Shown piece by piece: positions 5,593 to 62,278 of a stretch of 64,000 nucleotides of DNA (the stretch's first letter is position 1; every line of letters begins with the position of its first letter). This DNA comes from Gemmatimonadota bacterium (GTDB taxonomy: Bacteria; Latescibacterota; UBA2968; UBA8231): positions 70,134 to 134,133 of the forward strand of contig VXOR01000090.1 of assembly GCA_009840005.1 (NCBI GenBank), given 5' to 3'. A model generated the notes under the pieces. That model searched no databases. It was given only the letters and a program-made list of their open reading frames with translations, and was not told where the DNA came from. The position numbers were made by a program, and so were the translations under genes.

Positions 5593-7155
5593 TTGGACTT
5601 GCCCAAACTGGTAATGGGTCGAGAAATGGCTGTGGTCGATCAGCGCACGATCACAGAGGCGGGTATATCTAGCGCCGAACTCATAGAGCGGGCAGGTGCA
5701 GAGGTGATTGCGGCCATTGCGGCGCGCTGGGATGGCTTGGCTGGTTTGCAGGCCGTGGTCCTGTGTGGCAAGGGCAACAATGGTGGTGATGGATTTGCTG
5801 TAGCTCGGCTCTTGTGCGCTGGTGGTGGCTCGGCGCGCGTCTTCCTCGTGGCAGACCGCGCGGACGTGCAAGGAGCTGCGGCCGAGCACTTGCGGCGTTG
5901 TGAAGAGGAGGGCGGGGCCGTCGAAGTACTCGGCGAGGACTTGGCCCCGCTCGACGCTGCCCTCGGCGACGCCGACTTGGTAATAGACGCACTTTTGGGC
6001 ACCGGATTGCGCGGGGCTTCCCGCCCTGCCATGGCGCGCGTCATCGAGCGCATTGCCCATTGCGAAAGGCCGGTAGTGGCCGTGGATATTCCCTCGGGGG
6101 TCGAGGCCAACACCGGGCAGGTGCACGGCGCGGCCGTGCAAGCCGTGCTGACAGTGACCTTCGGCTTGGTCAAAGTAGGGCAGCTATTCTATCCTGGCCG
6201 GTCGCATTGCGGTGCGCTGCACTTGGCCAATATAGGCTTCCCCGAGTCCATCCTGCGCGATGCAGTTGCCCAAGCTCTGTTGCTTTCCGCCGAGGGGCTG
6301 GGGCCGCTCGTGCCGCGGCGTCGCGGCGACGAGCACAAGGGAAGCTGCGGGACGGTGGCCGTGGTCGCAGGTTCGGTGGGCATGACCGGGGCGGCCGCGC
6401 TGACGGCGGATGCCGCGCTCAGAAGCGGGGCTGGTCGCGTCCATCTAGGGATACCTGCGAGTCTCAACGACATTCTCGAAGTCAAGCTCTCGGAGGTGAT
6501 GACCCGGCCGTTGCCCGAAGTGCGCAAGCGGCGCTGTTTGTCGCTGCGGGCCTTGGGCGAGGTCAGCGCTATGTTGACGCGGGCCGATGTTTTGGCTTTG
6601 GGGCCGGGGTTGGGACGCTATCGAGAGACCGAGGAGTTGGTGAGGCGGCTGGTGTTGCAAACCGAACTGCCTCTCGTTTTGGATGCAGACGGGCTTAGTG
6701 CGTTCGCCGGTCAAGCCGAAGTGCTGAAAGATCGCTCGGCACCGCTGGTTCTCACGCCCCACGTAGGCGAGTTCGCCCGCTTGAGCGGGTTGGACAAGCA
6801 GCGGATTGCCGATGCGCCGATGGCTGTGGCCCGCGACTTTGCCGGCGCATTTGGCGCGACGCTTGTGTTGAAGGGCGCACCGACTGTCGTAGCGTTGCGC
6901 GATGGGCGGGTGGCGGTCAACTCCACGGGCAATCCGGGTATGGCCACGGCCGGATCGGGCGACGTGCTGACCGGGATTATCGCCGGGCTGATAGCCCAAG
7001 GGCTAGACGCGGAAACCGCGGCCTGCCTCGGGGTCTATGTCCACGGTCGGGCTGGGGATCGGGCGGTCGAGCGGCTGGGGGAATGGGGGATGCGGGCGGG
7101 CGATATAGCCGAAGAAATCGCCTTGGCCATGGTGGATGCAGCGCGGTCTGCTTGA
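5593..7155 (+). CDS. nnr: Bifunctional NAD(P)H-hydrate epimerase / ADP-dependent NAD(P)H-hydrate dehydratase
   Basis: A two-domain YjeF protein of the usual length (520 residues). The N-terminal epimerase domain (~1-215) carries the KGNNGGDG motif (60-67) and interconverts the R and S forms of damaged hydrated NAD(P)H. The C-terminal ribokinase-like dehydratase domain (~235-510) carries NPGMATAGSGDVLTG (447-461), whose GSGD loop binds the nucleotide and holds the catalytic Asp. Together they restore NADH and NADPH in the cytosol. The start is a TTG at 5593, 3 bases after the previous stop, with GGGAGG at 5579-5584. Its stop codon lies inside the -35 box of the promoter for the next gene. Confidence 0.95.
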   Translation: MDLPKLVMGREMAVVDQRTITEAGISSAELIERAGAEVIAAIAARWDGLAGLQAVVLCGKGNNGGDGFAVARLLCAGGGSARVFLVADRADVQGAAAEHLRRCEEEGGAVEVLGEDLAPLDAALGDADLVIDALLGTGLRGASRPAMARVIERIAHCERPVVAVDIPSGVEANTGQVHGAAVQAVLTVTFGLVKVGQLFYPGRSHCGALHLANIGFPESILRDAVAQALLLSAEGLGPLVPRRRGDEHKGSCGTVAVVAGSVGMTGAAALTADAALRSGAGRVHLGIPASLNDILEVKLSEVMTRPLPEVRKRRCLSLRALGEVSAMLTRADVLALGPGLGRYRETEELVRRLVLQTELPLVLDADGLSAFAGQAEVLKDRSAPLVLTPHVGEFARLSGLDKQRIADAPMAVARDFAGAFGATLVLKGAPTVVALRDGRVAVNSTGNPGMATAGSGDVLTGIIAGLIAQGLDAETAACLGVYVHGRAGDRAVERLGEWGMRAGDIAEEIALAMVDAARSA

Positions 7156-7180
7156 CATGTTTGAAGCGATGCTTTAATCT
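7152..7180 (+). promoter_or_regulatory. Sigma70-like promoter TTGACA-17-TAATCT
   Basis: A perfect -35 TTGACA (7152-7157), a 17-base spacer and a -10 TAATCT (7175-7180), overlapping the nnr stop codon. Transcription would start near 7187, about 60 bases before the tail-anchored protein gene at 7250, and might read on into the restriction-modification genes. Confidence 0.6.
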
Positions 7181-7249
7181 GGAAATGGAAGTGTTGCCGG
7201 TGTGGGTGCTGCTTGGCTTTTGCACATTTAAATTTACAGAGTTTGCGCT

Positions 7250-7744
7250 ATGGCCGACGTCAAAGACGCCATTGAAGAAATGATCGAAGAGTCCTACTTG
7301 CTAGGGCTTTCGGAAGAAGAAATTCTCGCCGATTTTAGCCGCTTTATCGATACCTGCTATACCGTTATTCAGGACAATGTGAAAAGCCGCGAAGCGCTCA
7401 GCCGCTTGGCCGAAAATTTGGCGCGGGAGAAGACCAGTACTCGCAGCGCTGACCAGTTCTCCGATCTGGGCAAGGTCGCGGCCAAGGACGCCCAGCGGGC
7501 CTGCGCTGAAAAAGCCGCGCGCCGCAAGCGCATGGTTCTAAAGGCCATTGCCGACTACGATCCCCATCTAGTCCGCCTCATCAACGAGCAGCGTTTTCAG
7601 GTGGATCTCCAGGAAGAAGTGGCGCGTCCCAAGTTCAAGGTCCGTCAGGGCCACGATTGGGAGCGCTACGGCCAGCTTTTGCTCCAAGCCGGCTACATCA
7701 CGGTAATTGCGCTCATCCTGTTCCTCATTTACCTAAAATTTTGA
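7250..7744 (+). CDS. Small alpha-helical protein with C-terminal membrane anchor
   Basis: I do not recognise the family. The 164-residue protein begins with an acidic helical stretch (MIEESYLLGLSEEEIL), has a Lys/Arg-rich middle segment (residues ~75-105, with AARRKRM), and ends in a single hydrophobic helix (~145-162) with only two residues after it. That is the layout of a tail-anchored inner-membrane protein whose bulk is cytosolic. No signal peptide is present. It stands alone behind a good promoter, downstream of nnr and upstream of a restriction-modification pair 165 bases away. Nothing in its sequence ties it to restriction. Confidence 0.6.
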   Translation: MADVKDAIEEMIEESYLLGLSEEEILADFSRFIDTCYTVIQDNVKSREALSRLAENLAREKTSTRSADQFSDLGKVAAKDAQRACAEKAARRKRMVLKAIADYDPHLVRLINEQRFQVDLQEEVARPKFKVRQGHDWERYGQLLLQAGYITVIALILFLIYLKF

Positions 7745-7909
7745 CCACTTGCATCTGCCCGACAGGGACGAATTTTAGTGGGCCTTTTGCGATATTATGT
7801 CAAGGAGAGATTAAAATTTGGACTGTGGACTGTGCAGATATGGCACTAGCGCAAATCAGTGTAAACCTGTAGCCAAAATTTGCCCTTATCGAGGTTGCTC
7901 GGATTCTTA

Positions 7910-8500
7910 ATGACTACGGATTTACTTCCTGATTTCATCCGCGAGCACTACGAAGTCCACGAGTGGAAACACGCCTGCGCGATACTGAACGAAGACTTCC
8001 CCGAAGAGTGGAACGACATCATTTCGGTCTTGCAGGAGTTTCGTCTTAGAAAAAGCTGGATAATGAAGCCCGGTGGCGGGAAATCTGCGATTTCGTCTTT
8101 TATTGACAATTACTTGTACGAAAGAGACTGGGAAGAAAAGGAATTCTCGACGAGGGTCGTAGTGGACGAAGATATCCGCGACGCACCAACGCACAAAATA
8201 GACTGTTTTCGCAATCGAGTGGCTCTCGAAATAGAATGGAATAACAAGGATCCATTCTACGACCGGGACTTGAATAACTTCAGGCTGCTTTTCGATCTTC
8301 GCGCCATCAGCGTCGGCGTCATCATAACCCGGTGCGATGAACTCCAAGACCTCTTCAATGCCCTGAACAAAGGACCGTCTTACGGGGCATCGACGACGCA
8401 CATGAGCAAGTTACTTCCGCGAATCGAAGGAGGCGGAGGTGGCGGCTGTCCCATCTTAGTGTTTGGTATCTCGAAAAAGTTGTATGTAGAGGATGAGTAA
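7910..8500 (+). CDS. BglII-like type II restriction endonuclease
   Basis: The 196 residues resemble the BglII/BstYI endonuclease family. The catalytic signature is seen as Asp98 (in HKIDCF), eight residues, then Glu107-x-Glu109 (EIEW), followed by NNKD. BglII itself has Asp-x8-Glu-x-Gln, so the third acidic residue is a variant. Cleavage within a GATC-like core is possible from the family, but specificity cannot be read. The ATG at 7910 was chosen over an upstream TTG at 7880. The gene ends exactly where the partner methyltransferase begins (TAAATG). Base composition is more A/T-rich than the flanking nnr and carB genes, consistent with horizontal acquisition. Confidence 0.75.
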   Translation: MTTDLLPDFIREHYEVHEWKHACAILNEDFPEEWNDIISVLQEFRLRKSWIMKPGGGKSAISSFIDNYLYERDWEEKEFSTRVVVDEDIRDAPTHKIDCFRNRVALEIEWNNKDPFYDRDLNNFRLLFDLRAISVGVIITRCDELQDLFNALNKGPSYGASTTHMSKLLPRIEGGGGGGCPILVFGISKKLYVEDE

Positions 8501-9148
8501 ATGACCGAAGCCAACGATTTACTCGCCGCGGTAGGCGGTAGGAAATTTTCGACCATTCTCGCCGATCCTCCTTGGCGATTTCATAATCGAACGGGGAAGA
8601 TGGCACCCGAGCACCGACGGCTCGCGAGATATTCGACGATGTCGTTTCAGGAGATCGGAGACCTACCGGTAGAATTAATTGCGACGGAAACCGCGCATTT
8701 ATACTTGTGGGTGCCAAACGCGCTGCTGCCTTACGGCCTTGAGGTCATGGATAGCTGGGGCTTTAGCTACAAAACGAATATAGTCTGGTACAAGGTGCGA
8801 AAGGACGGCGGGCCAGACCGGCGGGGCGTGGGATTCTACTTTCGCAATGTGACGGAAATGATCCTATTCGGCATCCGCGGCAAGAATGCCCGAACGCTAC
8901 AGCCCGGGCGCAGCCAAGAAAACATCATCGTCTCGCAAAAGCGAGAACACAGCCGGAAGCCAGACGAGCAGTACGATTTGATTGAGGAGTGTAGCCCGGG
9001 TCCCTTCATTGAGTTGTTTGCACGAGGGCCACGGAAAGGTTGGTTCGGATGGGGGGATCAGGCCGACGAGTACGCCCCCGACTGGGATACATACTCGAAT
9101 CACTCGCAGACCCACGCGACACCTCCCCACCAGCTTCCCCTGCTTTGA
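8501..9148 (+). CDS. MT-A70 family N6-adenine DNA methyltransferase (cognate of the BglII-like enzyme)
   Basis: The S-adenosylmethionine-dependent m6A methyltransferase signature DPPW is at residues 22-25 in ILADPPWRF. The family's other conserved blocks follow: LYLWVPNALLPYGLEVM, FRNVTEMILFGIRGK, and a C-terminal SPGPFIELFARGPRKGW. The MT-A70 fold is used by some type II systems (M.MunI is a known example). Its immediate adjacency to the endonuclease argues that it protects host sites. The BglII and BstYI partners are, as I recall, N4-cytosine methyltransferases, so pairing this nuclease fold with an MT-A70 enzyme is noteworthy. The protein is short (215 residues) with no separate target-recognition domain visible. 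Confidence 0.85.
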   Translation: MTEANDLLAAVGGRKFSTILADPPWRFHNRTGKMAPEHRRLARYSTMSFQEIGDLPVELIATETAHLYLWVPNALLPYGLEVMDSWGFSYKTNIVWYKVRKDGGPDRRGVGFYFRNVTEMILFGIRGKNARTLQPGRSQENIIVSQKREHSRKPDEQYDLIEECSPGPFIELFARGPRKGWFGWGDQADEYAPDWDTYSNHSQTHATPPHQLPLL

Positions 9149-22758: not shown

Positions 22759-23565
22759 ATGACACTCAAGATGGGATACGCGACCCTGCGCTGGCGGCAG
22801 CCGGATTTGGCAAAGGCCCTGCCCGAGCTCAAAAAGGCCGGCTGGGACGGTTGGGAGGGGCGGTTACCGCTCGACTGGCTGGGGCCGCCGCAGCGGCTGA
22901 AGCAAGTGTGCGAGGACGCGGATATGCCGCTGTGCGTATTTACGGCTAGTGGCTCGCCCGAAGACCGCGACTGGGAGCACACCGAGCGCAACAAGCGGCG
23001 GATGGATTTCGCCGCGGAGATGGGCGTGGACTGCTTCATGTTTATGAGTGGTCGCAAGCCAGAGGGACGACCGGCAGAACGCGCCGATATCGAGCGGGCG
23101 GCCGAGGGGGCCGAGCAGTGGGCCGAGTACGCGGCCCAGTACGGGCTGGAGCTAAGCTACCACATCCACACCAACTTGCTGGTGGATTCGGCCGAGGACT
23201 GGCGGCTGTACATGAGCTTGCTGGACAAAACGAAGCTGTGCATCGATGTCTCGCACGCCGAGTTGTGGGACTACGATCCAGTGCAGTCGCTGACGGACTT
23301 TTGGCATCAGCTCAACTACGTCCACCTACAGGACTATACGTCTTGCACGGTACGCGAGCCGGGGCGCTACAATCCCGAGTGGGTTTCGGTCGGCGAAGGC
23401 GAATGCCTCGACTTTGCCGGGGTGCTCAACACGCTCGCCGAGCGGGGCTTTGACCGCTGGGTGACCAGTTGTCCGGGCGAGCCGGCCTACGAAGGCGAGG
23501 ACCCAGTCAGCGAGGCGCGGCGGAGTGCGGGGATGCGCCAGTATTTGCGCGGGTTGGGGTACTAG
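22759..23565 (+). CDS. Xylose isomerase-like TIM barrel (sugar phosphate isomerase/epimerase family)
   Basis: A 268-residue AP-endonuclease-2/xylose-isomerase-type barrel. Glu/His/Asp residues expected to bind metal are seen along the strands: WEGRLPL early, LSYHIHTN mid-protein, LCIDVSHAEL, and YVHLQDY, followed by VGEGECLDFAG, the usual late strand. Members isomerise or epimerise sugars or inositols; the exact substrate is unknown. The ATG at 22759 is supported by GGAGG at 22749-22753. It is divergent from the MFS-HEAT gene, whose start is 86 bases away, so the two could form a sugar uptake and use pair (inference). A 223-base gap follows with no gene that I can see. Confidence 0.83.
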   Translation: MTLKMGYATLRWRQPDLAKALPELKKAGWDGWEGRLPLDWLGPPQRLKQVCEDADMPLCVFTASGSPEDRDWEHTERNKRRMDFAAEMGVDCFMFMSGRKPEGRPAERADIERAAEGAEQWAEYAAQYGLELSYHIHTNLLVDSAEDWRLYMSLLDKTKLCIDVSHAELWDYDPVQSLTDFWHQLNYVHLQDYTSCTVREPGRYNPEWVSVGEGECLDFAGVLNTLAERGFDRWVTSCPGEPAYEGEDPVSEARRSAGMRQYLRGLGY

Positions 23566-23788
23566 TGAGCCAATCCAGGCTGACCCAACTCGCCGTCTAG
23601 GTTCGCTGCTGGATGTGGCGGCGATGCCGAGTCGGAAGCAGGATCAGGTTTATTCGATGGGAGCGGTGGAATTGCTCTTGGTGTACGGCGCGGTGTATTA
23701 GTGTTTCTTTTCAGATAACACCTTAAGCGACCGTGCTGGTCGGGCAAATTGAAACGGCAGCGCGACTGAGAGTCCGCGAGATGGGGGT

Positions 23789-24583
23789 ATGACAGAGCCA
23801 GATCTATTAATCATAAACTACGAAGGACAGGACCGTCAGGTATCTTGGCAGGGTGTAAGTATGCAAGACGGCGATACGTTCAAATCGTTCATGTCCAACG
23901 AAGTTTCGTCACGGCTTTACGATGAAGAAGGTAAGGCCGAATTTGAAACGTATCTTCAAAACTTAGCCAACACGGGATTCGCTCGAGATAGCCTTGAGGA
24001 AATTCTGGCAGCCGAAATAAGCGAAGAACCAAGTTGGGCGATAGGAGAAGCAATAGCTGAAGCGTACCTGAGTCGCGAGTATAGAATTACATGGCCTTGG
24101 AACACGAAACGCGATAAGCGGCATCCTAATGCGAGTCTTCCAGGTGCAGATCTGGTCGGATTTATAGTTGAAGGCGAAACTACACGCCTCGTGCTTGGTG
24201 AAGTTAAATCATCTACTGAAGTGAAAACGCCGCCGAGCGTAATGAGCGGTCGGAGCGGTTTAATACACCAGATAGATAACTTAGCAAACGACCTGTCCTT
24301 GGTTTGCGAACTTCTCAAGTGGCTTTTACACCGTTGTAAAGAAACGGTCTATGAAACATCATTCAAGGCAGCGGTTAGATTATTTCTTGAGTCGGGAAAT
24401 AAGGCTCTTGCGCTCTTTGGGGTTCTGATTCGGGATACGCAGCCCAATGAGCTAGATTTACAGGCACGAGGGCAAACTATGGCGGGAAAACTGGAATACC
24501 CGACAACATGCGACTTGAGTGCAATATATTTGCCTTGCGCCATCGATGACCTTCCATCTCGCATACCTGGAGGTGAGCCATGA
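23789..24583 (+). CDS. PD-(D/E)XK nuclease-like protein, first gene of a three-gene defence-like operon (gene A)
   Basis: I do not recognise the exact family. The 264-residue soluble protein has a candidate restriction-nuclease core: an amphipathic helix with Glu (IGEAIAEAYL, ~85-94), Asp121 in PGADLVGFI, and Glu138-x-Lys140 in LVLGEVKSS on the next strand. That spacing fits PD-(D/E)XK folds. The strand order is reminiscent of HamA/DUF1837-type effectors, but I cannot confirm homology. It overlaps the helicase gene by 4 bases (ATGA), so the two are co-translated. Composition is A/T-richer than the preceding sugar isomerase gene. Inferred role: DNA- or RNA-cleaving effector of the system. Confidence 0.55.
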   Translation: MTEPDLLIINYEGQDRQVSWQGVSMQDGDTFKSFMSNEVSSRLYDEEGKAEFETYLQNLANTGFARDSLEEILAAEISEEPSWAIGEAIAEAYLSREYRITWPWNTKRDKRHPNASLPGADLVGFIVEGETTRLVLGEVKSSTEVKTPPSVMSGRSGLIHQIDNLANDLSLVCELLKWLLHRCKETVYETSFKAAVRLFLESGNKALALFGVLIRDTQPNELDLQARGQTMAGKLEYPTTCDLSAIYLPCAIDDLPSRIPGGEP

Positions 24584-27500
24584 GTCATTGGTTGCTTGAA
24601 GAACAAGAAGAGATGCGCCAACAGGCGCTGAAGCAAGTTCAGCTTGCACAGAATTCGCACAAGCAGGCAGACGAAAAATTGATCCGACGTGCTGCCGATG
24701 TGCTGGAAATGGCTGTGCTCGATCTCGTGCTTGAGGACGCAGTGCATGATGAGCAAAGACAAAGGGAATTGCAACTCGCCGCTGCTGACGCTTTTTGCTT
24801 GCTACGTGCCTTGCCTCGTCCGGCTGATCCACTCGATGCCGGGAAATTCCTATTGAGAGCGGGCAGCCTCGCCGTATTGGGAGACAAAGGGGCTGATGCA
24901 GAGCAGTGGTTGGAGAAAGAGCCTTGGGTTGAGCTTCCCATTGATTCGGAATGGCACAAGCGCACTTGGGCGACCGTCCTCGATGTTTGGCTAAGGCTGA
25001 TTCGCAAGCGCTATACCGACCTCGGCGCAGTTTTGAAACGAATCTCCCGCCTACGCGATGCCCAACCTGATCTTGAAAAGAATCATCTGGCAGCACAAGA
25101 ACCGGCCCATGCCAAGACGGTCGCCCTCGAATTGATCGGACTCTATCACCTCGCCAAGTCAGCCGAGATTTTAGTCCGCTACATGACCGATGATGGCGTG
25201 GATGGAAAACACCAGATACGCCAATCACTCGATACGCATTTTGGACAAGTGCTAGCCGTCTGCGAACATGCGCGAATGATCGATCTGGAACTGCTCAGTC
25301 GTCTGCTTGCCGCTAGTGCTATGCAGATGACCGAAGAAAAGGGGCTAACGCACACCCGCCGCTCTCTAGCCTCGCAAACAGCCGAAAAGGTGCCAACGTA
25401 TATGCCAGACCAAACGGAGTTTATACCGGGTCAAATGGTCGTCTTGAAGTCCAACCCCTCCCTGCGGGGCGCAGTGGTGAAGGTGCTCTCGGGACAGGCT
25501 GAAAATCGAGTCGAGGTGTTTATGGGTAGCAGCGTACAGACGTATTACGCCTCCCAGTTGCAGGTTGCGGACCAGCCCGATGATGAGTTGCAGCCGCTTT
25601 CGTGCGACCTGTTTCACGCCCACCTGACCGCGCTACAGATTCGGCATCCCAGCCTATCGACATTGTATTCGCTGAACGCGGCGCGCGTCAATTTCATCCC
25701 GTATCAGTTCCGGCCCGTGCTGAGGTTCATTCGGTCAGACCGTCCGCGCCTGTTGATCGCGGATGGCGTCGGGGTCGGCAAGACCATTGAGGCCGGATTG
25801 ATCTTGCGGGAGTTGCAGGCGCGGCGGGAGATCAAGTCTGTACTCATTATATGTCCCCGTCCGTTGGTGACCGAGAGCAAGTGGAAGAGTGAGATGAAGC
25901 GGTTTGGCGAAGACTTCACCCATTTGGACGGCCCAACATTGAGGTATTGCATCAAGGAGATGGATCTGGAAGGCGAATGGCCCGCTCAGCATCAGAAAGC
26001 GATTCTACCGTACTCGCTGTTCGACGAAGTACTTCTTTACGGTCCAGAGGGCAAGGACAGGGTTAGAAAAAAGCAGGGGAAAGGGCTGTTGGATTTGGAC
26101 CCGCCCCCGCGTTTCGACCTCGTGATCGTGGATGAAGCGCATCATATTCGCAATCCGAATACCCGTTCTCACGAGGCTGTCCGGTTTTTTTGTGACTATG
26201 CCGAGGCTGCGGTCTTTTTAACTGCAACCCCGATCCAGCTTGGCAGCGACGACCTGTTTGTGCTGCTGAACGTGCTGCGGCCCGACCTGATTCAGGATAT
26301 GGAGAGCTTTAAGCACATGGCCGCGCCGAATCCATTTATCAATAAAGCGGTGGATCATGCGCGGACCCAAGCGGCAGATTGGACTACTCAGGCCATGGAA
26401 GCACTCGACGAAGCGGCCGCTACGGGTTGGGGACGAGCCATTCTCAGCTACAATCCTGAATTTAAGCGGGTTAGGGGGCAACTTACTGAGGGCTACGTAG
26501 CTGCGGATGAACGCATCCAACTCATTACGGATATGGAAGCGCTGCATACCTTTGCGAGTATGATAAACCGGACGCGGCGGCGCGATATTGGGGCATTCAC
26601 CGTGAGAAAGCCGAAAACAGTACATGTTGATTTCACTCCCAGCCAAAAGCAGCTTCACGACGAATTACTCGCTGTTCAGGCGGACATATTTAGTCGGCTT
26701 CACGGGGATAGGAATGTCAAATTTATGATGACCACGATTAGACGTCAGGCCGCGAGTTGCCTGTATGGATTGATCCCTTTCCTCGAGAGCATTCTGAATC
26801 GCCGGCTTGACGAATTGGAATGGGAGGAAGCCGACGATGGGGAACCCGTCCCCCCAAGTGATGCTGTCAGCGCGATCCGATCTCAGATCGAGGGTGTACT
26901 TGAGAAAGCACGTGGGCTTGATCCCCACGATCCAAAGTTCGAGGCACTACGTACAGTCATCTGGGAGAAGCAAGACTTGGACAATAACGACAATAACAAG
27001 GTCATGCTGTTTAGCAGCTTTCGCCACACACTGTACTACCTTTACGAGAAGCTCAAGACGGACGGCGTGCGCGCCGCTATGGTCCACGGTGGGACGCCGG
27101 ATGAGGAGCGCGTTGAACTACGGCGCCTGTTTGAAAAGCCACGCGAGGACAGCAATGCTCTCGATGTCTTGCTGTTCTCGGAGATTGGTTGTGAGGGCTT
27201 GGATTATCAATTCTGCGATTGCATTGTGAACTATGACTTGCCTTGGAATCCGATGCGTGTTGAGCAGCGGATTGGTCGCATTGACCGCAACGGCCAGAAG
27301 AACGAGAGTGTCGCCATCGTCAACTTGATTACGCCGGGGACTGTTGACGCAGACATTTATGAGCGTTGCCTCAAACGCATCGGCGTATTTGAGCAGGCTC
27401 TCGGCGCTAGCGAAGAGATCCTCGGGGAGATTTCCAGAGAAATAAAGAACATTGCCGAGAACTATGCCTTGAGCGAAGCGGAGCGTCAGGCCCAACTCCA

Positions 27501-28467
27501 GCAGTTGGCAGACAATGAAATTCGCTTGATACAAGAACAGGAAGGGTTGGAACAGAAGCAGATGGAGCTTTTTGGGATTCGCCTTCCTGAAGACCAGATG
27601 AAAAGGGAGATTAGAGACGCTTCGAGTTTTTGGTTGACGCCGGGTTCGCTGCAAAGGCTCGTCGCGCTCTATTTGCAGCAGCGGTGTAAGGAAGAACGAG
27701 ATTTCATCCTCGGCGAGAAACCCCTGAAAACGCTGAGGCTTGCACAGGATGCGCGCAACCTCTTGTTGGGTGATTTCCAACAGCTTCCTAGGCAGAGCAC
27801 CTATCGGGAGTGGGAGACATGGTTGAAAGGGGACGACCAGCATCTGCAAATAACCTTTGAGCAGGATTGTGCCACCCTGCATCCAGAGGCCGCATTCATT
27901 ATGCCGCTGCACCCTTTGGTGAAACAGGCAGCCCGGTTTTTTGATAGTGATGAACGAGTCGTTGTACATCTGAAGGTACGGGACGATGATCTGCCCACTG
28001 GCCGGTATCAATTCGTCGTTTATCAGTGGCGGTTCTACGGTATCAGAGAGGATTTGAAGCTCAAGCTGGTTGCCTCATCGGATTCAGTAGAGCCGTATTT
28101 GGGCCGCCTCTTAGAGAGGGCGGAGGATGCCGAGACAGGGGAACAGGGAGAGTGGGACGAACTGGAAACGCAGCATCATCGGCTGTGGTCTGAGGCACGG
28201 ACAGAACACCAGCAACGGACCCAGGAGTTAGCAGCGTACCGCAGAGAGAGTCTGACGACGAGCCATCGGGCGCGGATGGAACTGCTCCAGGAGCAGCTTG
28301 AAAAGGCAAATAATGAGAGTATACAAAGGATGCGACGGTCGCAGATAGGCCGAGCAGAGGCTGACTACAACCGGCACGTTGAGGATTTGGATAGGGCCGA
28401 GGAGAAAGTCGATATTATCGCGGAGCCGGTGGCGTATGGGATTCTCAACATTGAGGGGATAAAATGA
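24580..28467 (+). CDS. SNF2-family DEAH helicase/translocase (gene B)
   Basis: A large (1295 residues) superfamily-2 ATPase. Residues ~1-280 are helical and of unknown type. Residues ~281-330 (FIPGQMVVLKSNPSLRGAVV) look like a small SH3/tudor-like barrel. The motor follows: ADGVGVGKT with Lys401 (Walker A), DEAH 518-521, TATP 548-551, and QRIGRIDRNGQ 896-906 (motif VI). The C-terminal ~350 residues include a long charged coiled coil (~1200-1280). This resembles the DrmD-type SNF2 helicases of DISARM and related stand-alone defence helicases. Inferred role: ATP-driven tracking or remodelling of invading DNA. It is coupled to genes A and C by 4-base overlaps on both sides. Confidence 0.85.
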   Translation: MSHWLLEEQEEMRQQALKQVQLAQNSHKQADEKLIRRAADVLEMAVLDLVLEDAVHDEQRQRELQLAAADAFCLLRALPRPADPLDAGKFLLRAGSLAVLGDKGADAEQWLEKEPWVELPIDSEWHKRTWATVLDVWLRLIRKRYTDLGAVLKRISRLRDAQPDLEKNHLAAQEPAHAKTVALELIGLYHLAKSAEILVRYMTDDGVDGKHQIRQSLDTHFGQVLAVCEHARMIDLELLSRLLAASAMQMTEEKGLTHTRRSLASQTAEKVPTYMPDQTEFIPGQMVVLKSNPSLRGAVVKVLSGQAENRVEVFMGSSVQTYYASQLQVADQPDDELQPLSCDLFHAHLTALQIRHPSLSTLYSLNAARVNFIPYQFRPVLRFIRSDRPRLLIADGVGVGKTIEAGLILRELQARREIKSVLIICPRPLVTESKWKSEMKRFGEDFTHLDGPTLRYCIKEMDLEGEWPAQHQKAILPYSLFDEVLLYGPEGKDRVRKKQGKGLLDLDPPPRFDLVIVDEAHHIRNPNTRSHEAVRFFCDYAEAAVFLTATPIQLGSDDLFVLLNVLRPDLIQDMESFKHMAAPNPFINKAVDHARTQAADWTTQAMEALDEAAATGWGRAILSYNPEFKRVRGQLTEGYVAADERIQLITDMEALHTFASMINRTRRRDIGAFTVRKPKTVHVDFTPSQKQLHDELLAVQADIFSRLHGDRNVKFMMTTIRRQAASCLYGLIPFLESILNRRLDELEWEEADDGEPVPPSDAVSAIRSQIEGVLEKARGLDPHDPKFEALRTVIWEKQDLDNNDNNKVMLFSSFRHTLYYLYEKLKTDGVRAAMVHGGTPDEERVELRRLFEKPREDSNALDVLLFSEIGCEGLDYQFCDCIVNYDLPWNPMRVEQRIGRIDRNGQKNESVAIVNLITPGTVDADIYERCLKRIGVFEQALGASEEILGEISREIKNIAENYALSEAERQAQLQQLADNEIRLIQEQEGLEQKQMELFGIRLPEDQMKREIRDASSFWLTPGSLQRLVALYLQQRCKEERDFILGEKPLKTLRLAQDARNLLLGDFQQLPRQSTYREWETWLKGDDQHLQITFEQDCATLHPEAAFIMPLHPLVKQAARFFDSDERVVVHLKVRDDDLPTGRYQFVVYQWRFYGIREDLKLKLVASSDSVEPYLGRLLERAEDAETGEQGEWDELETQHHRLWSEARTEHQQRTQELAAYRRESLTTSHRARMELLQEQLEKANNESIQRMRRSQIGRAEADYNRHVEDLDRAEEKVDIIAEPVAYGILNIEGIK

Positions 28468-31400
28468 GTTTGGAAAAATTACGACAGAAGCGTTTGAAGT
28501 GGGTAGAGGCGAACCGCGAAAACGGCTTTGATGATGGCATCAGACGTTTACTAACTGATCTCTATCCCGATAACGCGCACTTCATTTATGAGCTTCTGCA
28601 AAATGCCGAAGATGCTGGCGCAACAGAGGTGCGCTTCATTCTCAGAGAGAATAGTGTCGAATTTGAACACAACGGAGCTCGACTATTTACTCTGGAGGAT
28701 GTGGACTCTATTACAAGCATCGGCTTCAGCACAAAGAGAGAGGATCATACAAGCATCGGCAAGTTTGGCGTTGGCTTTAAGGCTGTATTTGCCTATACGG
28801 AGACGCCTGAAGTTGTATCGGGTGAATATCATTTTCGCATTCGTGATTTGGTCGTGCCCGATACGGAAGAATTGGCTTTCTGTCCTCGGGGCGAGAAACA
28901 GACCTACTTCTCTTTCCCTTTTGATAATGACGCAAAGCCACCTGAAAAAGCTCGTGATGAAATAGAAAGAAATCTGCAGAAGTTGGACGAAAGTACGCTT
29001 CTCTTCCTCAGCAATATCAAAAAAATAGAATATCGGCTGCCTGATTCGACTGAGGGTTTTATCGAGCGGAGAGAAACAGATCAGGAAAACAGAATTGAGA
29101 TTCTTGTCCAGCGTCTAGGATACTCGGAACCGGATTCAGTCTCTTTTCTCCGGTTTGAAAAAGAGGTCGAGATAAATGATGAAGATGGTGCTCCGAAGTT
29201 ATGTCGAATCGCTATAGCCTTCCTTTTAGATAGAGAACAAGAACAGGCTGCGCGAAGATCAACTAAAAGACAAGAGCGATCCCAAAGTGTTCAACGGAGA
29301 ATAAAGTCGTTAGAGCCGGGGCAAGTCTCCATTTACTTCCCTGCCGAAAAGGAAACGTCCAATCTGCGGTTTCATCTCCACTCACCTTTTGCCTCAACCG
29401 TTGCTCGCGATAGCATCCGCGATTGCCCGGAAAATGATGAGCTGCGGGATCACTTGGCGGATTTAATCGCGGAATCAATGGCCGCTATACGTGAACAAGG
29501 GCTGTTGACCGTAGAATTTTTGGCGACGCTCCCTAATGACCAAGAAAGCTTGCCTTCGTTCTACAAGCCAATCATGGAGAGGCTGGTTGAGGTGTTCAAG
29601 AAGGAAAAACTGTTCCCGATGAAACAGGGAGGTCATGCTCCTGCATCAGGAATCTACCGGGGAAGTAGGCAGTTGTCTGAACTGATCGGTGACGAAGATT
29701 TGGCGACGATTCTCAGAAAGGATTCATCTCTGCCTCTATGGGCTGCGAATGCTCCGCAACGAAACCAAGAGGCAAACAATTTTCTGTCTTCACTCGGAAT
29801 CTCCAAATGGGATGAAAAAGACCTTATAAGAGAGCTATCCGAGCAGCCTGATTTGGTAAAGACATGGCTAAAGGACAAACCGGACGAATGGCATCAGGAG
29901 TTTTATGCATTGCTCGGCGATTTCTTATCCAACCAATCAATGTATACAGATGATCTATCAAATCTCTCTATCGTCCGTATCAGCGATGGTACCACCTACA
30001 AGAAAGGTAAAGACTGTTATTTCCCAAGCGACGATGTGGAACACGATGAAAAATTTCCCCGAGTTGCCAAAGGCGTCTATTCGTCTGAAAAAAACAAGGA
30101 CCAGCAGAAAAAAGCTCGCGAATTTCTTGAAGATATTGATGTTAGCGAAGTTGAAGAAAGTGACCGAGTTGAGGCGATTTTGAAGCAGCGGTATGGAAAA
30201 GGGTCAATCTGCGGACAACATCACGAGCAGGATATAAAGAGATTTATTGCACTTATAGAGAAGCAACCAAGCCGAACACTTTTGTTCAAAAACTACTTCA
30301 TATTCAAAATTGATAAGAATTTGGATAACAAAACATGGTGGGCAAAGCCAAGTATAGTCTTTCTGGATTCTCCTTATCGCGATACCGGACTGGGAGCGTA
30401 CTATGATGCACTTGGCGAAGATTCAGACCGAAAATGGGCACTCTCTCCGGAATATGAAAAGTATGGTATAGATCCAGAAAGACTCGGGAAATTCGCCAAG
30501 GCGATGGGTGCTCAGACAAAACTGGAAGTTAAACAGCAAGAAATTCCACGTAATCATCCCGAATACTCTGATCTAAAGTCTGCCCCAGGTGAGCGATTGA
30601 GCAATGTGATCAATATAGATCATACAATTCCTGAATTTAAGGTTCTACTCGATAAACCCAATCTCGATAAGGCACGGCTGATTTGGCGAACGATGGATTC
30701 GCTAGATGACGATTACTTGGAATCAAAGTATCGGAAAAACGCAACAGGGGGATTCCATTACGGAGCCTCTAGCTTTGTACATGATTTAAGGAGGGCGGCA
30801 TGGGTTCCTCAGAAGTATAGAGGAGAGCCCCTCCGTTTTGTGCATCCTTGTGATGCATCAAGTGACTATCTTCCAGAAGGTTTTTCGTACGAGTCTTGGC
30901 GAGAGTGGATCCGTAAGATTGAATTTGGAAAGAGCTGGCAAGATCAAGAGGAACAGGAACGAAGGAGGAAGGAACGAGCTACTCAAGAATATCAGCGGAA
31001 AGAAGAGGTTGCTATCGAAATGGGATTTGATTCCGCCGAGGAAGCTGAAGAGCTCGCGATGCTAAAGAAGAAAGACCCAGAAGCGTTCAAAGAGTTTATT
31101 CAGAAGAAAAAGGCGAAAGAACAGAGGCCGACATTTCCAGAGAAAACGTCAAATAATCCAGATCGTAGGCAAGAAAAAGTTAAGGAACAACTCGCCGACA
31201 CTTCTGATAAAGAATACGAAGAGCTAAAAAGAAGCGTCCGAACTTCACGAGGAGCTGTTGTCCCTAAAATCGACCTTAGAGAGCAATATACGAATGATTC
31301 TGGTGAGATGGTGTGCCAGATCTGCCAAGAGGAAATGCCGTTCAAAAAACGAGATGGTAAGTATTACTTTGAGGCGGTAGAGGCACTTTCAAAAGACTAT

Positions 31401-31628
31401 TTTCCCAAGGAATACGAAGCTCAATCTATTGCTTTATGCCCCCTGTGCGCTGCAAGGTACAAGGAATTTGTGATACGTGACGAAGACGCCATGAAAGAGT
31501 TACATCGCGCTTTGAAAGACTCGGACGACCTTGGGGTGCCGCTGAAATTGGGAGAGTTAGAGACAAGTATCCGGTTTGTGGAGACCCACCGGCAGGATAT
31601 GCAAACAATTCTACAAAATCGGGCTTGA
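28464..31628 (+). CDS. Sacsin/Hsp90-like GHKL ATPase with C-terminal zinc module (gene C)
   Basis: The N-terminal ~200 residues are a GHKL ATPase of the sacsin/NO VEIN type: N-box ELLQNAEDAGA (Glu43, Asn47), an HNG turn (69-71) replacing the usual DxGxG, and the G2 loop SIGKFGVGFKAVF (98-109). A long middle region has no recognisable domain. Residues ~830-930 are a highly charged, Lys/Glu-rich coiled coil. The C-terminal part has Cys951-x2-Cys954 and Cys992-x2-Cys995, a treble-clef or HNH-like zinc site without an obvious HNH catalytic His. Composition is the most A/T-rich in the window. GHKL ATPases act as ATP-gated clamps; a sensing or clamp role for this system is inference. It overlaps gene B by 4 bases. 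Confidence 0.75.
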   Translation: MSLEKLRQKRLKWVEANRENGFDDGIRRLLTDLYPDNAHFIYELLQNAEDAGATEVRFILRENSVEFEHNGARLFTLEDVDSITSIGFSTKREDHTSIGKFGVGFKAVFAYTETPEVVSGEYHFRIRDLVVPDTEELAFCPRGEKQTYFSFPFDNDAKPPEKARDEIERNLQKLDESTLLFLSNIKKIEYRLPDSTEGFIERRETDQENRIEILVQRLGYSEPDSVSFLRFEKEVEINDEDGAPKLCRIAIAFLLDREQEQAARRSTKRQERSQSVQRRIKSLEPGQVSIYFPAEKETSNLRFHLHSPFASTVARDSIRDCPENDELRDHLADLIAESMAAIREQGLLTVEFLATLPNDQESLPSFYKPIMERLVEVFKKEKLFPMKQGGHAPASGIYRGSRQLSELIGDEDLATILRKDSSLPLWAANAPQRNQEANNFLSSLGISKWDEKDLIRELSEQPDLVKTWLKDKPDEWHQEFYALLGDFLSNQSMYTDDLSNLSIVRISDGTTYKKGKDCYFPSDDVEHDEKFPRVAKGVYSSEKNKDQQKKAREFLEDIDVSEVEESDRVEAILKQRYGKGSICGQHHEQDIKRFIALIEKQPSRTLLFKNYFIFKIDKNLDNKTWWAKPSIVFLDSPYRDTGLGAYYDALGEDSDRKWALSPEYEKYGIDPERLGKFAKAMGAQTKLEVKQQEIPRNHPEYSDLKSAPGERLSNVINIDHTIPEFKVLLDKPNLDKARLIWRTMDSLDDDYLESKYRKNATGGFHYGASSFVHDLRRAAWVPQKYRGEPLRFVHPCDASSDYLPEGFSYESWREWIRKIEFGKSWQDQEEQERRRKERATQEYQRKEEVAIEMGFDSAEEAEELAMLKKKDPEAFKEFIQKKKAKEQRPTFPEKTSNNPDRRQEKVKEQLADTSDKEYEELKRSVRTSRGAVVPKIDLREQYTNDSGEMVCQICQEEMPFKKRDGKYYFEAVEALSKDYFPKEYEAQSIALCPLCAARYKEFVIRDEDAMKELHRALKDSDDLGVPLKLGELETSIRFVETHRQDMQTILQNRA

Positions 31629-31649
31629 AGCGAACACCTTGGACGAAAG

Positions 31650-32639
31650 ATGAGGATTGAAAAACCACCATACACAATCGCGCCGGAGATCCTTTTTCGC
31701 CTTGAAGAAATCGGGGAGGCGATTGGTCGGGCGACAGGCATTGTACAGGATTTGCGCCTGCGGCGAATCAATCGCATCCTCACCGTTCGCGGATCGCTGG
31801 CCATTGAAGGCAATGTCCTCAGTGAGGAGCAAGTTTCCACCATTCTCGATGGCAAGCCCGTTGTCGCGCCGCTCAGGGACATTCAGGAAGCCCGCAACGC
31901 CATCAAAGCCTACGATCAATACCAGCAGTGGGACCCGGCTAGCGAAACCGACCTGCTGAGTGCTCACGAAGTCTTGATGAGCGGATTGTTGGACGCGCCC
32001 GGACACTATCGCCGCACCGGCATTGGCGTGATGGGCGGCGGCGCAGTCCATCACATCGGTCCATCCGCTAGGCGCGTACTGCAACTCATGGCCAATTTGC
32101 TGGCATGGCTGGGCAGCACCGATGAGCACCCGCTGATTGCCAGTTCGGTCTTCCACTACGAGTTCGAGTTCATTCACCCCTTTGAGGATGGCAACGGACG
32201 CATGGGACGGCTCTGGCAGACCTTGATTCTGACCCGCTGGAAACCCCTGTTCGCCCACATCCCCGTAGAAAGTCTGGTGCATGCCCGACAAGGCGACTAC
32301 TACCAAGCCATCCGGCAGAGTTCGGACGAGGGCGAGAGCACACCGTTCATTGCGTTCATGCTGAAGATCATTCTGGATGCACTTCAGACACCCACAGTAA
32401 GCGACCAAGTAAGCGACCAAGTAAGCGACCAAGTAGCGCGGCTGCTTGCGGTCTTGCGGACCGGGCCAAAAACGGCCGCCGAACTCATGGCGGCACTGGG
32501 GTTGTCGCATCGTCCCACATTCCGCAAAAACTACCTTCGCCCGGCACTGTCCGCAGGGCTAGTGGAAATGACGCGCCCTGAATCGCCCACCGCGAAAAAT
32601 CAGCAGTATCGCCTCGCCGTGCGTGGGCGAAAGATGTGA
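31650..32639 (+). CDS. Fic-domain AMP-transferase, SoFic-like, with tandem SDQV linker and winged-helix C-terminus
   Basis: The Fic catalytic motif HPFEDGNGRMGR is at residues 176-187, with His176 the catalytic base. The auto-inhibitory class II motif (S/T)xxxE(G/N) is present at 49-54 in SLAIEGN, so activity is probably held in check by Glu53. After the Fic core there is a short linker of three VSDQ units (~250-261), then a winged-helix-like domain (ARLLAVLRTGPKTAAELMAALG). The family transfers AMP to protein hydroxyls. Solitary proteins of this design (SoFic) have been reported as anti-phage genes. It starts 21 bases after gene C but is richer in G+C, so it may be a separate acquisition in the same island. 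Confidence 0.9.
   Translation: MRIEKPPYTIAPEILFRLEEIGEAIGRATGIVQDLRLRRINRILTVRGSLAIEGNVLSEEQVSTILDGKPVVAPLRDIQEARNAIKAYDQYQQWDPASETDLLSAHEVLMSGLLDAPGHYRRTGIGVMGGGAVHHIGPSARRVLQLMANLLAWLGSTDEHPLIASSVFHYEFEFIHPFEDGNGRMGRLWQTLILTRWKPLFAHIPVESLVHARQGDYYQAIRQSSDEGESTPFIAFMLKIILDALQTPTVSDQVSDQVSDQVARLLAVLRTGPKTAAELMAALGLSHRPTFRKNYLRPALSAGLVEMTRPESPTAKNQQYRLAVRGRKM
32397..32432 (+). repeat. Three perfect 12-bp tandem repeats in the Fic gene (GTAAGCGACCAA)
   Basis: Units lie at 32397-32408, 32409-32420 and 32421-32432, each encoding VSDQ in frame. Copy-number change by slippage would lengthen the linker between the Fic and winged-helix domains in four-residue steps without a frameshift. Confidence 0.85.
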
Positions 32640-32657
32640 TTTCGGAAAGGGTGTTTC

Positions 32658-59726: not shown

Positions 59727-60112
59727 GCGAAGCCACGCTGGCCCAGCTTACCGCCGAAATTCGCCGCTTCGTGGAAGAGCGCGACTGGGCGCAATTCCAC
59801 ACCCCCAAGGACTTGGCCATTGGTCTTTCTACCGAAGCGGCCGAAGTCTTGGAGCACTTCCGCTTCCGCTCCGACCAAGAGATCGCCACCCGCTTAGAGG
59901 ACGAATCCTTCCGCCGGGCGGTCGGCCACGAATTGGCTGATGCGCTGTACTTTGTCCTGCTTATGTGCGATCGCTTCGGCTTGGACGCCGCGCAAATGCT
60001 GGAGGAGAAATTGGCCATTTCAGCCCAGCGCTATCCAGTGGAAAAGGCCCGGGGCAAGAACCTCAAATACACTGCCTACCAAGTTCCCCCGGCAAGCGAT
60101 CATACCTCATAA
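59723..60112 (+). CDS. MazG-like nucleotide pyrophosphohydrolase
   Basis: The 129-residue all-alpha protein has the MazG/dCTPase metal-binding helices: TEAAEVLEHF, with ExxE spacing, and HELADALYFVLL, with ExxD. RYPVEKARGKNLKYTAY is the typical C-terminal tail of this small subgroup (the KAxGKxxKY pattern). These enzymes hydrolyse (d)NTPs to monophosphates and house-clean the nucleotide pool in the cytosol. The start overlaps the stop of the FGE-like gene (ATGA), so it is co-translated with a gene for an exported protein, a pairing with no evident functional link. Confidence 0.9.
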   Translation: MSEATLAQLTAEIRRFVEERDWAQFHTPKDLAIGLSTEAAEVLEHFRFRSDQEIATRLEDESFRRAVGHELADALYFVLLMCDRFGLDAAQMLEEKLAISAQRYPVEKARGKNLKYTAYQVPPASDHTS

Positions 60113-60182
60113 AGAAGCCTACGAATAAGAACGAGCTAAGTACACGACAGTAAGAGAAGCCGTGACGCATCGCCGATTTAGG

Positions 60183-60212
60183 TTATTTGTAATCACCCAA
60201 GATCGCAAATAA
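60183..60212. promoter_or_regulatory. Inverted repeat in the leader of the third DUF6785-like gene
   Basis: TTATTTG (60183-60189) and CAAATAA (60206-60212), 16 bases apart, flanked by GG and GCC that extend the pairing with a bulge. It lies about 45 bases before the ATG. It could be an operator or a weak hairpin; nothing else is seen in this 141-base gap. Confidence 0.25.
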
Positions 60213-60253
60213 GCCTTGTCACTTTCTCCTTGGAGCCGGATCGCAACTTGAAT

Positions 60254-62278
60254 ATGAAAAAAGGGATCCCTCCAATCTTCCAGGATCACTTAGAGGCCCG
60301 GCGTGACGCGGCGCGGCCCGATGAGAAGACGCCGGGTATCACCTTACGGGCCGTGTCAATTGGTGCCTTTTTGTCGCTGTTCATCGGCGCGGCCGTACCT
60401 TATACCAATATGATCATCAAGGGCACGGTCATGGCTCACAATTTCAGCACACCGGCCGCCCTTTTTGTATTCTTCGTATTCGTTTTCCTAATAAATACAT
60501 CCCTGGCCCTGCTAGGCCCTAGATTTGCCCTGAGCCGTTCCGAGTTGGCGGTGGTTTACATCATGGCGATGCTAGCCACCTCCGTGCCCACAATCGGTTT
60601 CACCGAAAATCTGCTGCCTATCATCGCAGGACTCTACTACTACGCCACCCCCGAAAATAAGTGGCAAGAGTTGATTCACCCGCATGTGCCTAAGTGGATC
60701 GTCCCGCAAGATGCAGAGGCCATCACTTATTTCTACGAGGGCTTGCCACCAGGCATGGCCCTGCCTTGGGACGCTTGGGTCGAGCCGCTCTTTTACTGGT
60801 GCCTGTTCATCTTGTCATTCTACTGGGTATCTATATGCATGATGACCATTCTGCGCAAACAGTGGGTCGAGTACGAAAAGCTGCCCTATCCTCTAGTCCA
60901 AGTCCCGCTAGAGATGATCCAGGATGAAGATCGAGAAGCGCGTGGCCCTAACGAGAAGCGCTCGCTCGTTAAACCTTACTTTAGAAACCGGGTCATGTGG
61001 GGCGGGTTCGCCGTGCCTTTTCTCATAGGTACGGCGAATGCGCTCAGCGGCTATTTCCCTTTTCTGCCACACATCGAGACCCACTCCGAGATGCGTCTGT
61101 TCAGAGGCAGCACCTCCTTGCGTCTCGACTTGAATCTAGGGCTGATTGGTTTCGCTTATCTGCTCAGCCGCGATGTGGCGCTGGGATTCTGGTTCTTCTT
61201 CCTGCTATCGACGGTGCAGCGGGGAGTCTTCAATGTCTTGGGAATACAAAGTACGGAGACCTTGAGCCGGTTTGCCAATTCGGTTGGTCCCTATCTGGCT
61301 CATCAAGCCATGGGTGCCATGATCGTGCTGGTTCTGTCCAGCGCGTGGATGGCGCGTCGGCATCTGCAAGCCGTCTATCGCAAGGTATTCCATCACGATC
61401 CGTCCATCGACGATAGCGACGAAATTATCTCCTATCGCACTGCGGTCTGGGGTCTGCTCGTGGGTCTGGGGGTGATGGGGACTTGGTTGTGGCAGTCCGG
61501 GTTGCCTTTGTGGGTTGTCCCGGTCTTTCTGTTTGGCATGACAGCGATCTTTATCGCCATCACCAGAGCGGTAGCGGAAGGCGGAATTTCCGTGATTCGC
61601 ACGCCCTTGACCCCGGCCGATTTTGTGATTTCTGGAGTGGGCACTAGTGCGCTGGGTGTCTCCGGTCTAACAGGGCTGGCCTTCACCTATGTGTGGAGTG
61701 CCAATATACGCATCTTCTTTATGCCCTGTTTTGCCAATGCGCTGAAACTAGCCGAGGAGATTCGCGGCAGCAAAAGGGGTCTGCTATGGGCGGTTTTCCT
61801 AGCCCTAGTCGTCACTCTGATCAGCTCGGTGTGGTCTGTGATGACCCTGTCCTATAAATACGGCGGGATCAACCTCCACCAGTTCTGGTTCGTGGGAGTG
61901 CCGCGCAATGCATTCAATTTTATCGCTCCTAAATTCGTCGATCCGGTCCCGGCTAGCATATCTGGTTGGGGCTTCACGGGTTTGGGTGCAGCACTCATGG
62001 GTTTGTTGACTTATATCCGCTACCGCTTTGTGTGGTGGCCGATCCATCCGTTGGGCTTTGCCACGGGTACGTTCAACATTATGAACTGGGTGTGGTTCAG
62101 CATCTTCACCGCCTGGGTGTTGAAGAGTATCATACTCAAGTTCGGCGGCTCCGCAGGGTATTTGAAGACGCGGCCGTTTTTTCTCGGTTTAATTTTGGGC
62201 CAAGTTTCAGTAGCCGGTTTGTGGCTGATCATCGACGGTTGCACTGGAAAGACCGGGAATGTGTTAGGGTATTTTTGA
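60254..62278 (+). CDS. Polytopic membrane protein, DUF6785/DUF6784-like (paralogue 3)
   Basis: About 674 residues from the ATG at 60254, chosen because KKGIPPIFQDHLEARR aligns with the N-terminus of the paralogue at 54694; a TTG at 60230 is an alternative. Shared signatures: YYYATPENKWQELIHPHVPK, LRKQWVEYEKLPYPLVQVPL, EIISYRTAVWG, AVAEGGISVIRTPLTPADFV, WWPIHPLGFATG and the closing FLGLILGQVSVAG-WLIIDG. About fourteen membrane helices. It has diverged more from the minus-strand pair than they have from each other. A fourth copy follows, overlapping by 4 bases. Confidence 0.65.
   Translation: MKKGIPPIFQDHLEARRDAARPDEKTPGITLRAVSIGAFLSLFIGAAVPYTNMIIKGTVMAHNFSTPAALFVFFVFVFLINTSLALLGPRFALSRSELAVVYIMAMLATSVPTIGFTENLLPIIAGLYYYATPENKWQELIHPHVPKWIVPQDAEAITYFYEGLPPGMALPWDAWVEPLFYWCLFILSFYWVSICMMTILRKQWVEYEKLPYPLVQVPLEMIQDEDREARGPNEKRSLVKPYFRNRVMWGGFAVPFLIGTANALSGYFPFLPHIETHSEMRLFRGSTSLRLDLNLGLIGFAYLLSRDVALGFWFFFLLSTVQRGVFNVLGIQSTETLSRFANSVGPYLAHQAMGAMIVLVLSSAWMARRHLQAVYRKVFHHDPSIDDSDEIISYRTAVWGLLVGLGVMGTWLWQSGLPLWVVPVFLFGMTAIFIAITRAVAEGGISVIRTPLTPADFVISGVGTSALGVSGLTGLAFTYVWSANIRIFFMPCFANALKLAEEIRGSKRGLLWAVFLALVVTLISSVWSVMTLSYKYGGINLHQFWFVGVPRNAFNFIAPKFVDPVPASISGWGFTGLGAALMGLLTYIRYRFVWWPIHPLGFATGTFNIMNWVWFSIFTAWVLKSIILKFGGSAGYLKTRPFFLGLILGQVSVAGLWLIIDGCTGKTGNVLGYF

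Follow-up and report, generated by a model that had tools for sequence, protein, structure and literature searches.

A candidate domain-swapped relative of Hachiman combining a HamA-like nuclease, an SNF2 motor and a sacsin-type GHKL protein

Three overlapping genes

The window considered here is the whole of a 64,000-nucleotide stretch of contig VXOR01000090.1 (Gemmatimonadota bacterium, assembly GCA_009840005.1), and the positions of its genes A, B, and C are given in window coordinates. All three genes lie on the + strand: gene A at 23789-24583 (264 residues), gene B at 24580-28467 (1295 residues), and gene C at 28464-31628 (1054 residues). The A/B and B/C pairs each share 4 nucleotides; the first ATGA was read in the DNA, and the second was deduced from the coordinates of the open reading frames (ORFs). 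The original prediction, made from these letters alone, had described three large genes joined by two such ATGA overlaps and encoding a PD-(D/E)XK-like protein (Asp121, Glu138-x-Lys140), a 1295-residue SNF2 motor with complete motifs, and a 1054-residue protein with a GHKL head and a CxxC...CxxC tail, in a segment more A/T-rich than its surroundings and next to a SoFic-like gene. Each of these descriptive claims agrees with what is reported below. Gene B is in addition almost certainly a chimera, and we put at roughly 0.6 the probability that the three genes are a relative of Hachiman with swapped domains that works in the manner proposed here.

Gene A is predicted to encode a HamA-like PD-(D/E)xK nuclease. 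Structure prediction gave the HamA nuclease fold with a D-ExK site, in keeping with the nuclease originally proposed, and activity is likewise a prediction. The PADLOC model PDC-M23A, from the candidate system PDC-M23, matches gene A over its full length (2.1e-101; residues 9-261 to model positions 8-260 of 263), and Pfam and NCBIfam assign it no family. Residues D121, E138, K140, and Q161 are invariant across 86 aligned sequences, window included, and the gene spells E138-V-K140. A scan of named genomes based on an alignment of gene A found 129 relatives, of which the best 80 were kept, and viral contigs added 2. The D and ExK are intact in all of a set of 17 gene A relatives. Searches of plasmid records and of phage records with gene A gave no match in either. 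In the model, helices 29-43/46-59 and 161-183/189-201, together with a mostly loop segment at 99-121 that is partly of low confidence, sit at like-numbered places to the three stretches of HamA that contact HamB, a positional match rather than a residue-by-residue superposition.

Sequence comparison and predicted structure show that gene B consists of two fused modules with a boundary at about residues 253-275. Residues 1-253 (24580-25338, + strand) form a HamB-type NAH domain, the dock for HamA: the predicted fold matches the N-terminal bundle of HamB by VIA-align, and PDC-M23B matches residues 8-267, at positions 18-277 of 1060 only. The last 783 positions of PDC-M23B, which contain its HamB-like DEAD motor, are replaced in gene B by SNF2. 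A linker of residues 254-274 (25339-25401, + strand) leads to the fusion point, an internal ATG (Met275; 25402-25404, + strand) that coincides with the start codon of ungrafted SNF2 proteins. From there, residues 275-1295 (25402-28467, + strand) make up a DrmD/RapA-like SNF2 motor, as judged from PADLOC DrmD (1e-120), Pfam SNF2-rel_dom and Helicase_C, RapA as the best match among solved chains, and ungrafted relatives from the same class that are 70-75% identical to it. DrmD is the best PADLOC match to gene B, and no HamB model appears among the 25 shown of 44. The SNF2 motifs read GVGKT, DEAH, and QRIGRIDR.

A search with gene B residues 1-560 found 6272 relatives, of which 120 were listed. 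Among those listed, 26 cover all of residues 1-560 at 78-91% identity; in 3 the alignment begins near residue 160, and in the remaining 91 it begins no earlier than residue 213, with 50-66% coverage. Nearly all of the 26 clusters that cross the junction (24) are 1265-1296 residues long, and all 26 have an intact Walker A, DEAH, and motif VI. In short-form chimeras, canonical sequence runs to ...SQMAEK and continues directly into YMPDQT..., where the Met is the start of ungrafted SNF2 proteins (MLNQTEF, MADRTEF); the window's gene B has about 20 extra residues between the canonical end and the SNF2 start, and it is these linker residues that the short forms lack in the junction alignment. The idea that the linker past residue 253 is a decayed version of the canonical NSIW...TR segment was dropped because canonical homology ends there in that alignment. 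Within 25380-25404, the SNF2 start codon retained inside gene B has AAGG about 11 nucleotides upstream, and an NAH-less product arising through internal initiation at this codon is possible.

Gene C opens with a conserved sacsin-type GHKL ATPase head (residues 1-400; 28464-29663, + strand), which matches Pfam SACS (6.3e-22) and the NCBIfam sacsin domain (92.8 bits, cut-off 50). Its matches above curated cut-offs are sacsin models, with HATPase_c_3 below its own. Gene C has both an N-box and a G2 box; among its relatives, the N-box is intact in 8 of 8 and a G2 box like the window's occurs in 7 of 8. PADLOC TmtA, which we take to be a protein of the Tiamat system, matches at 6.4e-61 (residues 3-694 to positions 7-685 of 1302). 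The conserved CxxC...CxxC tail (residues 951-1040; 31314-31583, + strand) is 78-91% identical in 7 of the 8 relatives, with both CxxC present; the eighth is truncated and lacks it. Between head and tail lies a variable middle (residues 401-900; 29664-31163, + strand), the proposed trigger-recognition part. Six of the eight relatives have heads 81-94% identical to the window's and middles of only 50-56%; of the other two, P0241 is 90% identical in head and middle, and P0242 is 67% identical in the head and 74% in the middle. The B proteins on contigs equal in size to those of four of these C relatives are 82-91% identical to the window's. Across 116 sequences (the window and, of 120 gene C relatives, the 115 that exceed 1000 residues), conservation is lower in the middle than in residues 951-1000 and most of the head, although residues 251-300 of the head and 1001-1050 vary too. 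We read this mosaic pattern as allelic replacement of what would be the recognition part.

Relatives with and without the graft

The record titles of gene A relatives span archaea and many bacterial groups. Every one of 82 gene A loci carries an NAH protein whose remainder matches the canonical, HamB-type B motor (in four of the 82 the contig ends within the B gene), and gene A adjoins it in 81 by a coordinate rule, the exception, L061, having over-long ORF calls. SNF2 is the better motor match in none of the 82. Gene C is likewise absent from all 82 stretches, a result well tested in the 55 with at least 3.5 kb after gene B. Three canonical B proteins scanned with PADLOC match PDC-M23B nearly end to end, followed by many HamB models. 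Given this constant pairing with an NAH protein bearing a HamB-type motor and these model matches, the usual gene A system is, by sequence, a divergent Hachiman-like pair. Viral contigs contributed two canonical loci and no chimera.

The SNF2 motor has a different usual partner. Around its relatives, 18 stretches were read, 13 genomic and 5 from plasmid records. Gene C stands on the same strand beside the motor in 16 of them, overlapping or within 2 nucleotides in 12 and at 324-662 nucleotides in 4, with a small gene in between in two of these 4; the two stretches without it are G003, where the contig breaks off, and one around a distant match from Shinella (31.5%). Neither NAH nor gene A was found in the 18 stretches except in G008. 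Three loci bearing gene C (G513, G432, and G436) carry a Swt1-like HEPN domain at the N terminus of the motor, as do 13 of the 120 listed gene B relatives; the label comes from scans in this analysis for the three loci and from precomputed Pfam labels for the 13 P rows in the motor tree. Of 47 host-class genomes, 8 have close SNF2 relatives (E <= 1e-150), as do at least 1 of 297, at least 3 of 398, and at least 1 of 244 genomes in the phyla of G065, G061, and G062; these last counts are lower bounds, as the phylum-wide scans scored no more than the top two first-look candidates in each genome.

Several small genes accompany these motors. A gene of 202-205 residues separates SNF2 from gene C in two genomes of the same class, G034 and G035 (L101:3954-4562, L102:6868-7485), and another of 176-184 residues directly precedes SNF2 in rhizobial plasmids (L108:8292-8846, L109:8285-8815, L110:8282-8812); the rhizobial protein may be another partner at the N terminus of the motor. 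Pfam gave nothing above cut-off for the small genes scanned, namely two of the three rhizobial ones, that of G034 (the L101 copy), and one from Methanomethylovorans, and the two scanned with PADLOC had no match at 0.001. On the plasmid of Rhizobium sp. BT03 (L109:4485-8142), the SNF2-sacsin pair stands beside an LmuB match (4.8e-31), and the front of the neighboring gene has its best matches in long HamA models (2.8e-58) and matches LmuA more weakly. A Methanomethylovorans plasmid (L111:9001-15485) carries a distant SNF2 and HSP90-type pair, and a csa3 gene also lies in that stretch.

The chimera retains most of what is conserved in canonical NAH domains. A set of 81 canonical NAHs has 29 positions within residues 1-253 with conservation of at least 90%, and the 27 chimeras preserve 23 of these at a frequency of at least 90%. 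Past the junction, none of the 27 retains any of the seven positions conserved to this degree in the canonical set, and the window has no LPPQR stretch. Chimeric NAHs form one clade among canonical NAHs (27 rows, 100/100), and their grouping with L009, L011, and L012 has support of 83/98. The chimeric motors also form one clade (33 rows, support 100), within which fall the broken motor piece of G008, one protein without an NAH, and four truncated forms. Chimera-type gene A rows form one clade as well (18 rows, support 100), weak evidence when taken alone, as these rows (P0001-P0017) were assigned by identity and not by seen linkage. A single graft followed by losses fits these trees best. The chimera is present in 1 of 11 same-genus genomes. 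Elsewhere, A and B clusters share sizes of their longest contigs (25792, 6581315, 25821, 7927, and 16692), as do B and C clusters (141196, 138016, 8435, and 1343990), with no size common to all three; these coincidences suggest A-B and B-C linkage in other chimeras.

Proposed working and alternatives

Gene A and the first module of gene B resemble Hachiman: gene A has the predicted fold of the HamA nuclease with a D-ExK site, and profile and predicted fold place the NAH docking domain, with presumed binding, on the partner motor. Unlike Hachiman, a two-gene locus with a Ski2-like SF2 motor in HamB, the locus has three overlapping genes, an SNF2 motor (Pfam SNF2-rel_dom), a sacsin-type GHKL protein as its third member, and presumably a different trigger. 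It fails membership in Hachiman because the HamB motor is absent, but at the effector end it should work like Hachiman. PDC-M23 is matched by gene A and by the front of gene B, but PDC-M23B is not matched along its length, its DEAD motor having given way to SNF2, and gene C is extra. The motor is of the DrmD/RapA type found in DISARM, but its score against the DrmD equivalog is 313.3 bits and the NCBIfam cut-off is 610, so membership in DISARM was rejected; no other DISARM gene is present among the insert's four large genes (A, B, C, and a neighboring Fic gene) or in the upstream sugar-isomerase-like gene, the one other window gene scanned. Gene C shares with TmtA a sacsin-type GHKL head, but only the first half of the TmtA model is matched, and here the gene is the third of an operon. 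As for MutL/MORC-type (mza-like) proteins, the comparison goes only as far as the sacsin and HATPase_c_3 models.

Of the original statement that the set could not be mapped onto DISARM, Hachiman, or other named systems, the part on membership in DISARM and Hachiman stands. The set is nonetheless not wholly unknown, as gene A and the first module of gene B map to PDC-M23/Hachiman. A precedent for an effector preceding an SNF2 motor is the HEPN-SNF2 fusions described in 2013 by Anantharaman et al. (PMC3710099), a family to which three loci with gene C correspond here; in the portion of that paper available, the HEPN is of RNase type and in the same chain, as opposed to a docked DNase, and no pairing with sacsin is found. 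Within the portions available, SNF2 is mentioned in neither PMC12278908 nor PMC12799240, the latter describing Hachiman acquiring nuclease-protease pairs, and PMC12839542 and PMC12458937 contain no arrangement of this kind. The literature searched, which takes in few subscription papers, mentions neither PDC-M23 nor DUF1837 with SNF2, and no title or abstract opening among the matches listed describes the arrangement.

We propose that a HamA-like DNase and its NAH dock moved from a two-gene HamA and DEAD-helicase system (PDC-M23) onto the N terminus of an SNF2 motor of the DrmD/RapA kind, whose neighbor at other loci is a sacsin-type GHKL protein. An anti-phage role for the product is quite probable. 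In the solved HamAB complex, according to the accessible part of PMC12278908, NAH binds HamA, helicase ratcheting shifts NAH, this motion is proposed to activate HamA, and HamA once activated by its partner degrades DNA indiscriminately. By analogy, the gene A protein would be bound to NAH and kept inactive. Gene C would recognize an infection cue through its variable middle, and, with gene C as the gate, ATP-driven movement of the SNF2 motor would shift NAH and free or activate gene A, a route that we offer tentatively, as a little less probable than an even chance. Gene A would then destroy DNA and halt the phage, probably at the cell's cost. Hachiman, in which DNA damage triggers the clearance of all DNA, responds to free single-stranded DNA ends; with the HamB motor missing here, another trigger is to be expected.

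Several observations weigh against this proposal. Six conserved NAH positions fall below 90% in the chimeras (K143, 22/27; R76, 14/27; G205, 3/27; R109, 1/27; G144 and W145, 0/27), so docking could be altered, and the binding of gene A to NAH in the chimera is something that we infer. Foldseek alone ranked HamB insignificantly for NAH (E 0.15, rank 2), and the NAH profile found only designed armadillo repeats among PDB sequences and not HamB; because of these two results, identification of the domain rests on VIA-align and PDC-M23B. Against PDB sequences, gene A itself found solved HamA only at E 0.96 and 1.5, and its profile gave chance matches without HamA. In some relatives (P0147-P0151) the NAH is truncated or missing, and genes A and B are broken in G008, indicating that the graft is sometimes lost. 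Finally, A, B, and C were read together in one stretch only in the window and G008; the recurrence of this order, a question raised with the original prediction, was read directly that far.

Those signs of loss raise the question of whether the locus is a decaying recombination product with no present function, which is very improbable given 26 clusters across the junction (24 near full length) with invariant catalytic motifs. More serious is that SNF2 simply does HamB's job of sensing damaged or free DNA ends, with gene C as an accessory or chaperone, making the system functionally Hachiman. Gene A and NAH are after all Hachiman parts, and the helicase ratcheting reported for Hachiman would suit such a continuity. 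The motor, however, is not of HamB type. Gene C also looks core, because this SNF2 family adjoins it in 16 of 18 stretches whether other N-terminal modules or none are present, and a variable middle is unlike a plain chaperone. We therefore consider this alternative unlikely. Somewhat less likely again is a restriction-like system in which the SNF2 translocase and gene C, as a GHKL clamp or looper, find invading DNA and gene A cuts it, sparing the host. In 2008, prokaryotic MORC-type GHKL proteins were described in operons with SWI2/SNF2 helicases and nucleases, with DNA looping in restriction-modification proposed (PMC2292703, from the part available), and the original interpretation that the GHKL protein senses or clamps, SNF2 translocates, and the nuclease acts comes close to this alternative; its division of labor is supported in part. 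No methyltransferase is present among the insert's four large genes, the set scanned, the indiscriminate degradation described for activated HamA fits poorly with a spared host, and the curated models place gene C with sacsin.

Taking the domain-swapped relative of Hachiman as the preferred reading, the SNF2 and sacsin-type GHKL pair could be an undescribed sensor chassis with an effector port at the SNF2 N terminus, filled by a fused HEPN, by HamA through a transplanted NAH, or by other modules or none, with the GHKL middle setting the cue and HamA-NAH serving as a portable, self-contained cartridge for an unrelated motor; for this wider idea we see the chances as evenly divided. Read in this way, the gene set suggests that bacteria build new immune systems by exchanging whole functional blocks. 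If the reading is correct, the locus is a natural experiment on control of the Hachiman nuclease: the HamA-NAH pair would by itself form a sufficient on/off switch, and the motor driving it would be replaceable by one with other mechanics and another cue. The SNF2-sacsin pair would then join the defense sensors with exchangeable effectors, and natural gene C alleles would offer a direct way to test what the GHKL protein does.

Insertion site and neighboring genes

Genes A, B, and C and the Fic gene form an insert of about 9.1 kb (23566-32657, no strand assigned) between two convergent host genes. In the same-genus genomes G003 and G005 the two flanking host genes nearly abut, and blastn matches of the flanks stop at 23565-23571 and restart at 32658. 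The G+C content in 2-kb windows over A-B-C is 0.45-0.54, versus about 0.61 on both sides. Two more dips occur within the window, at 7001-9000 (0.528) and 60001-62000 (0.539).

In G001, the corresponding site holds Fic only. Because homology begins at window position 31613, inside the 3' end of gene C, it suggests that A-B-C was lost there; a separate ungrafted SNF2-sacsin pair lies elsewhere on the same contig. G008 keeps remnants of A-B-C, with window 23566-23869 and 23924-24269 missing, including parts of gene A, and with gene B split over several frames. In G008 two small overlapping ORFs (L107:15009-15846) replace Fic; neither Pfam (above cut-off) nor PADLOC matches them, and by eye they look like a nucleotidyltransferase-HEPN pair.

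The SoFic-like Fic gene (31650-32639, + strand; PADLOC SoFic 5.8e-42) was rejected as a component of the system, since it is separable and stands without A-B-C in G001. Its protein carries a short in-frame repeat (SDQVSDQVSDQV) ahead of the C-terminal domain, at 32350-32450, which is also present in the G001 copy.

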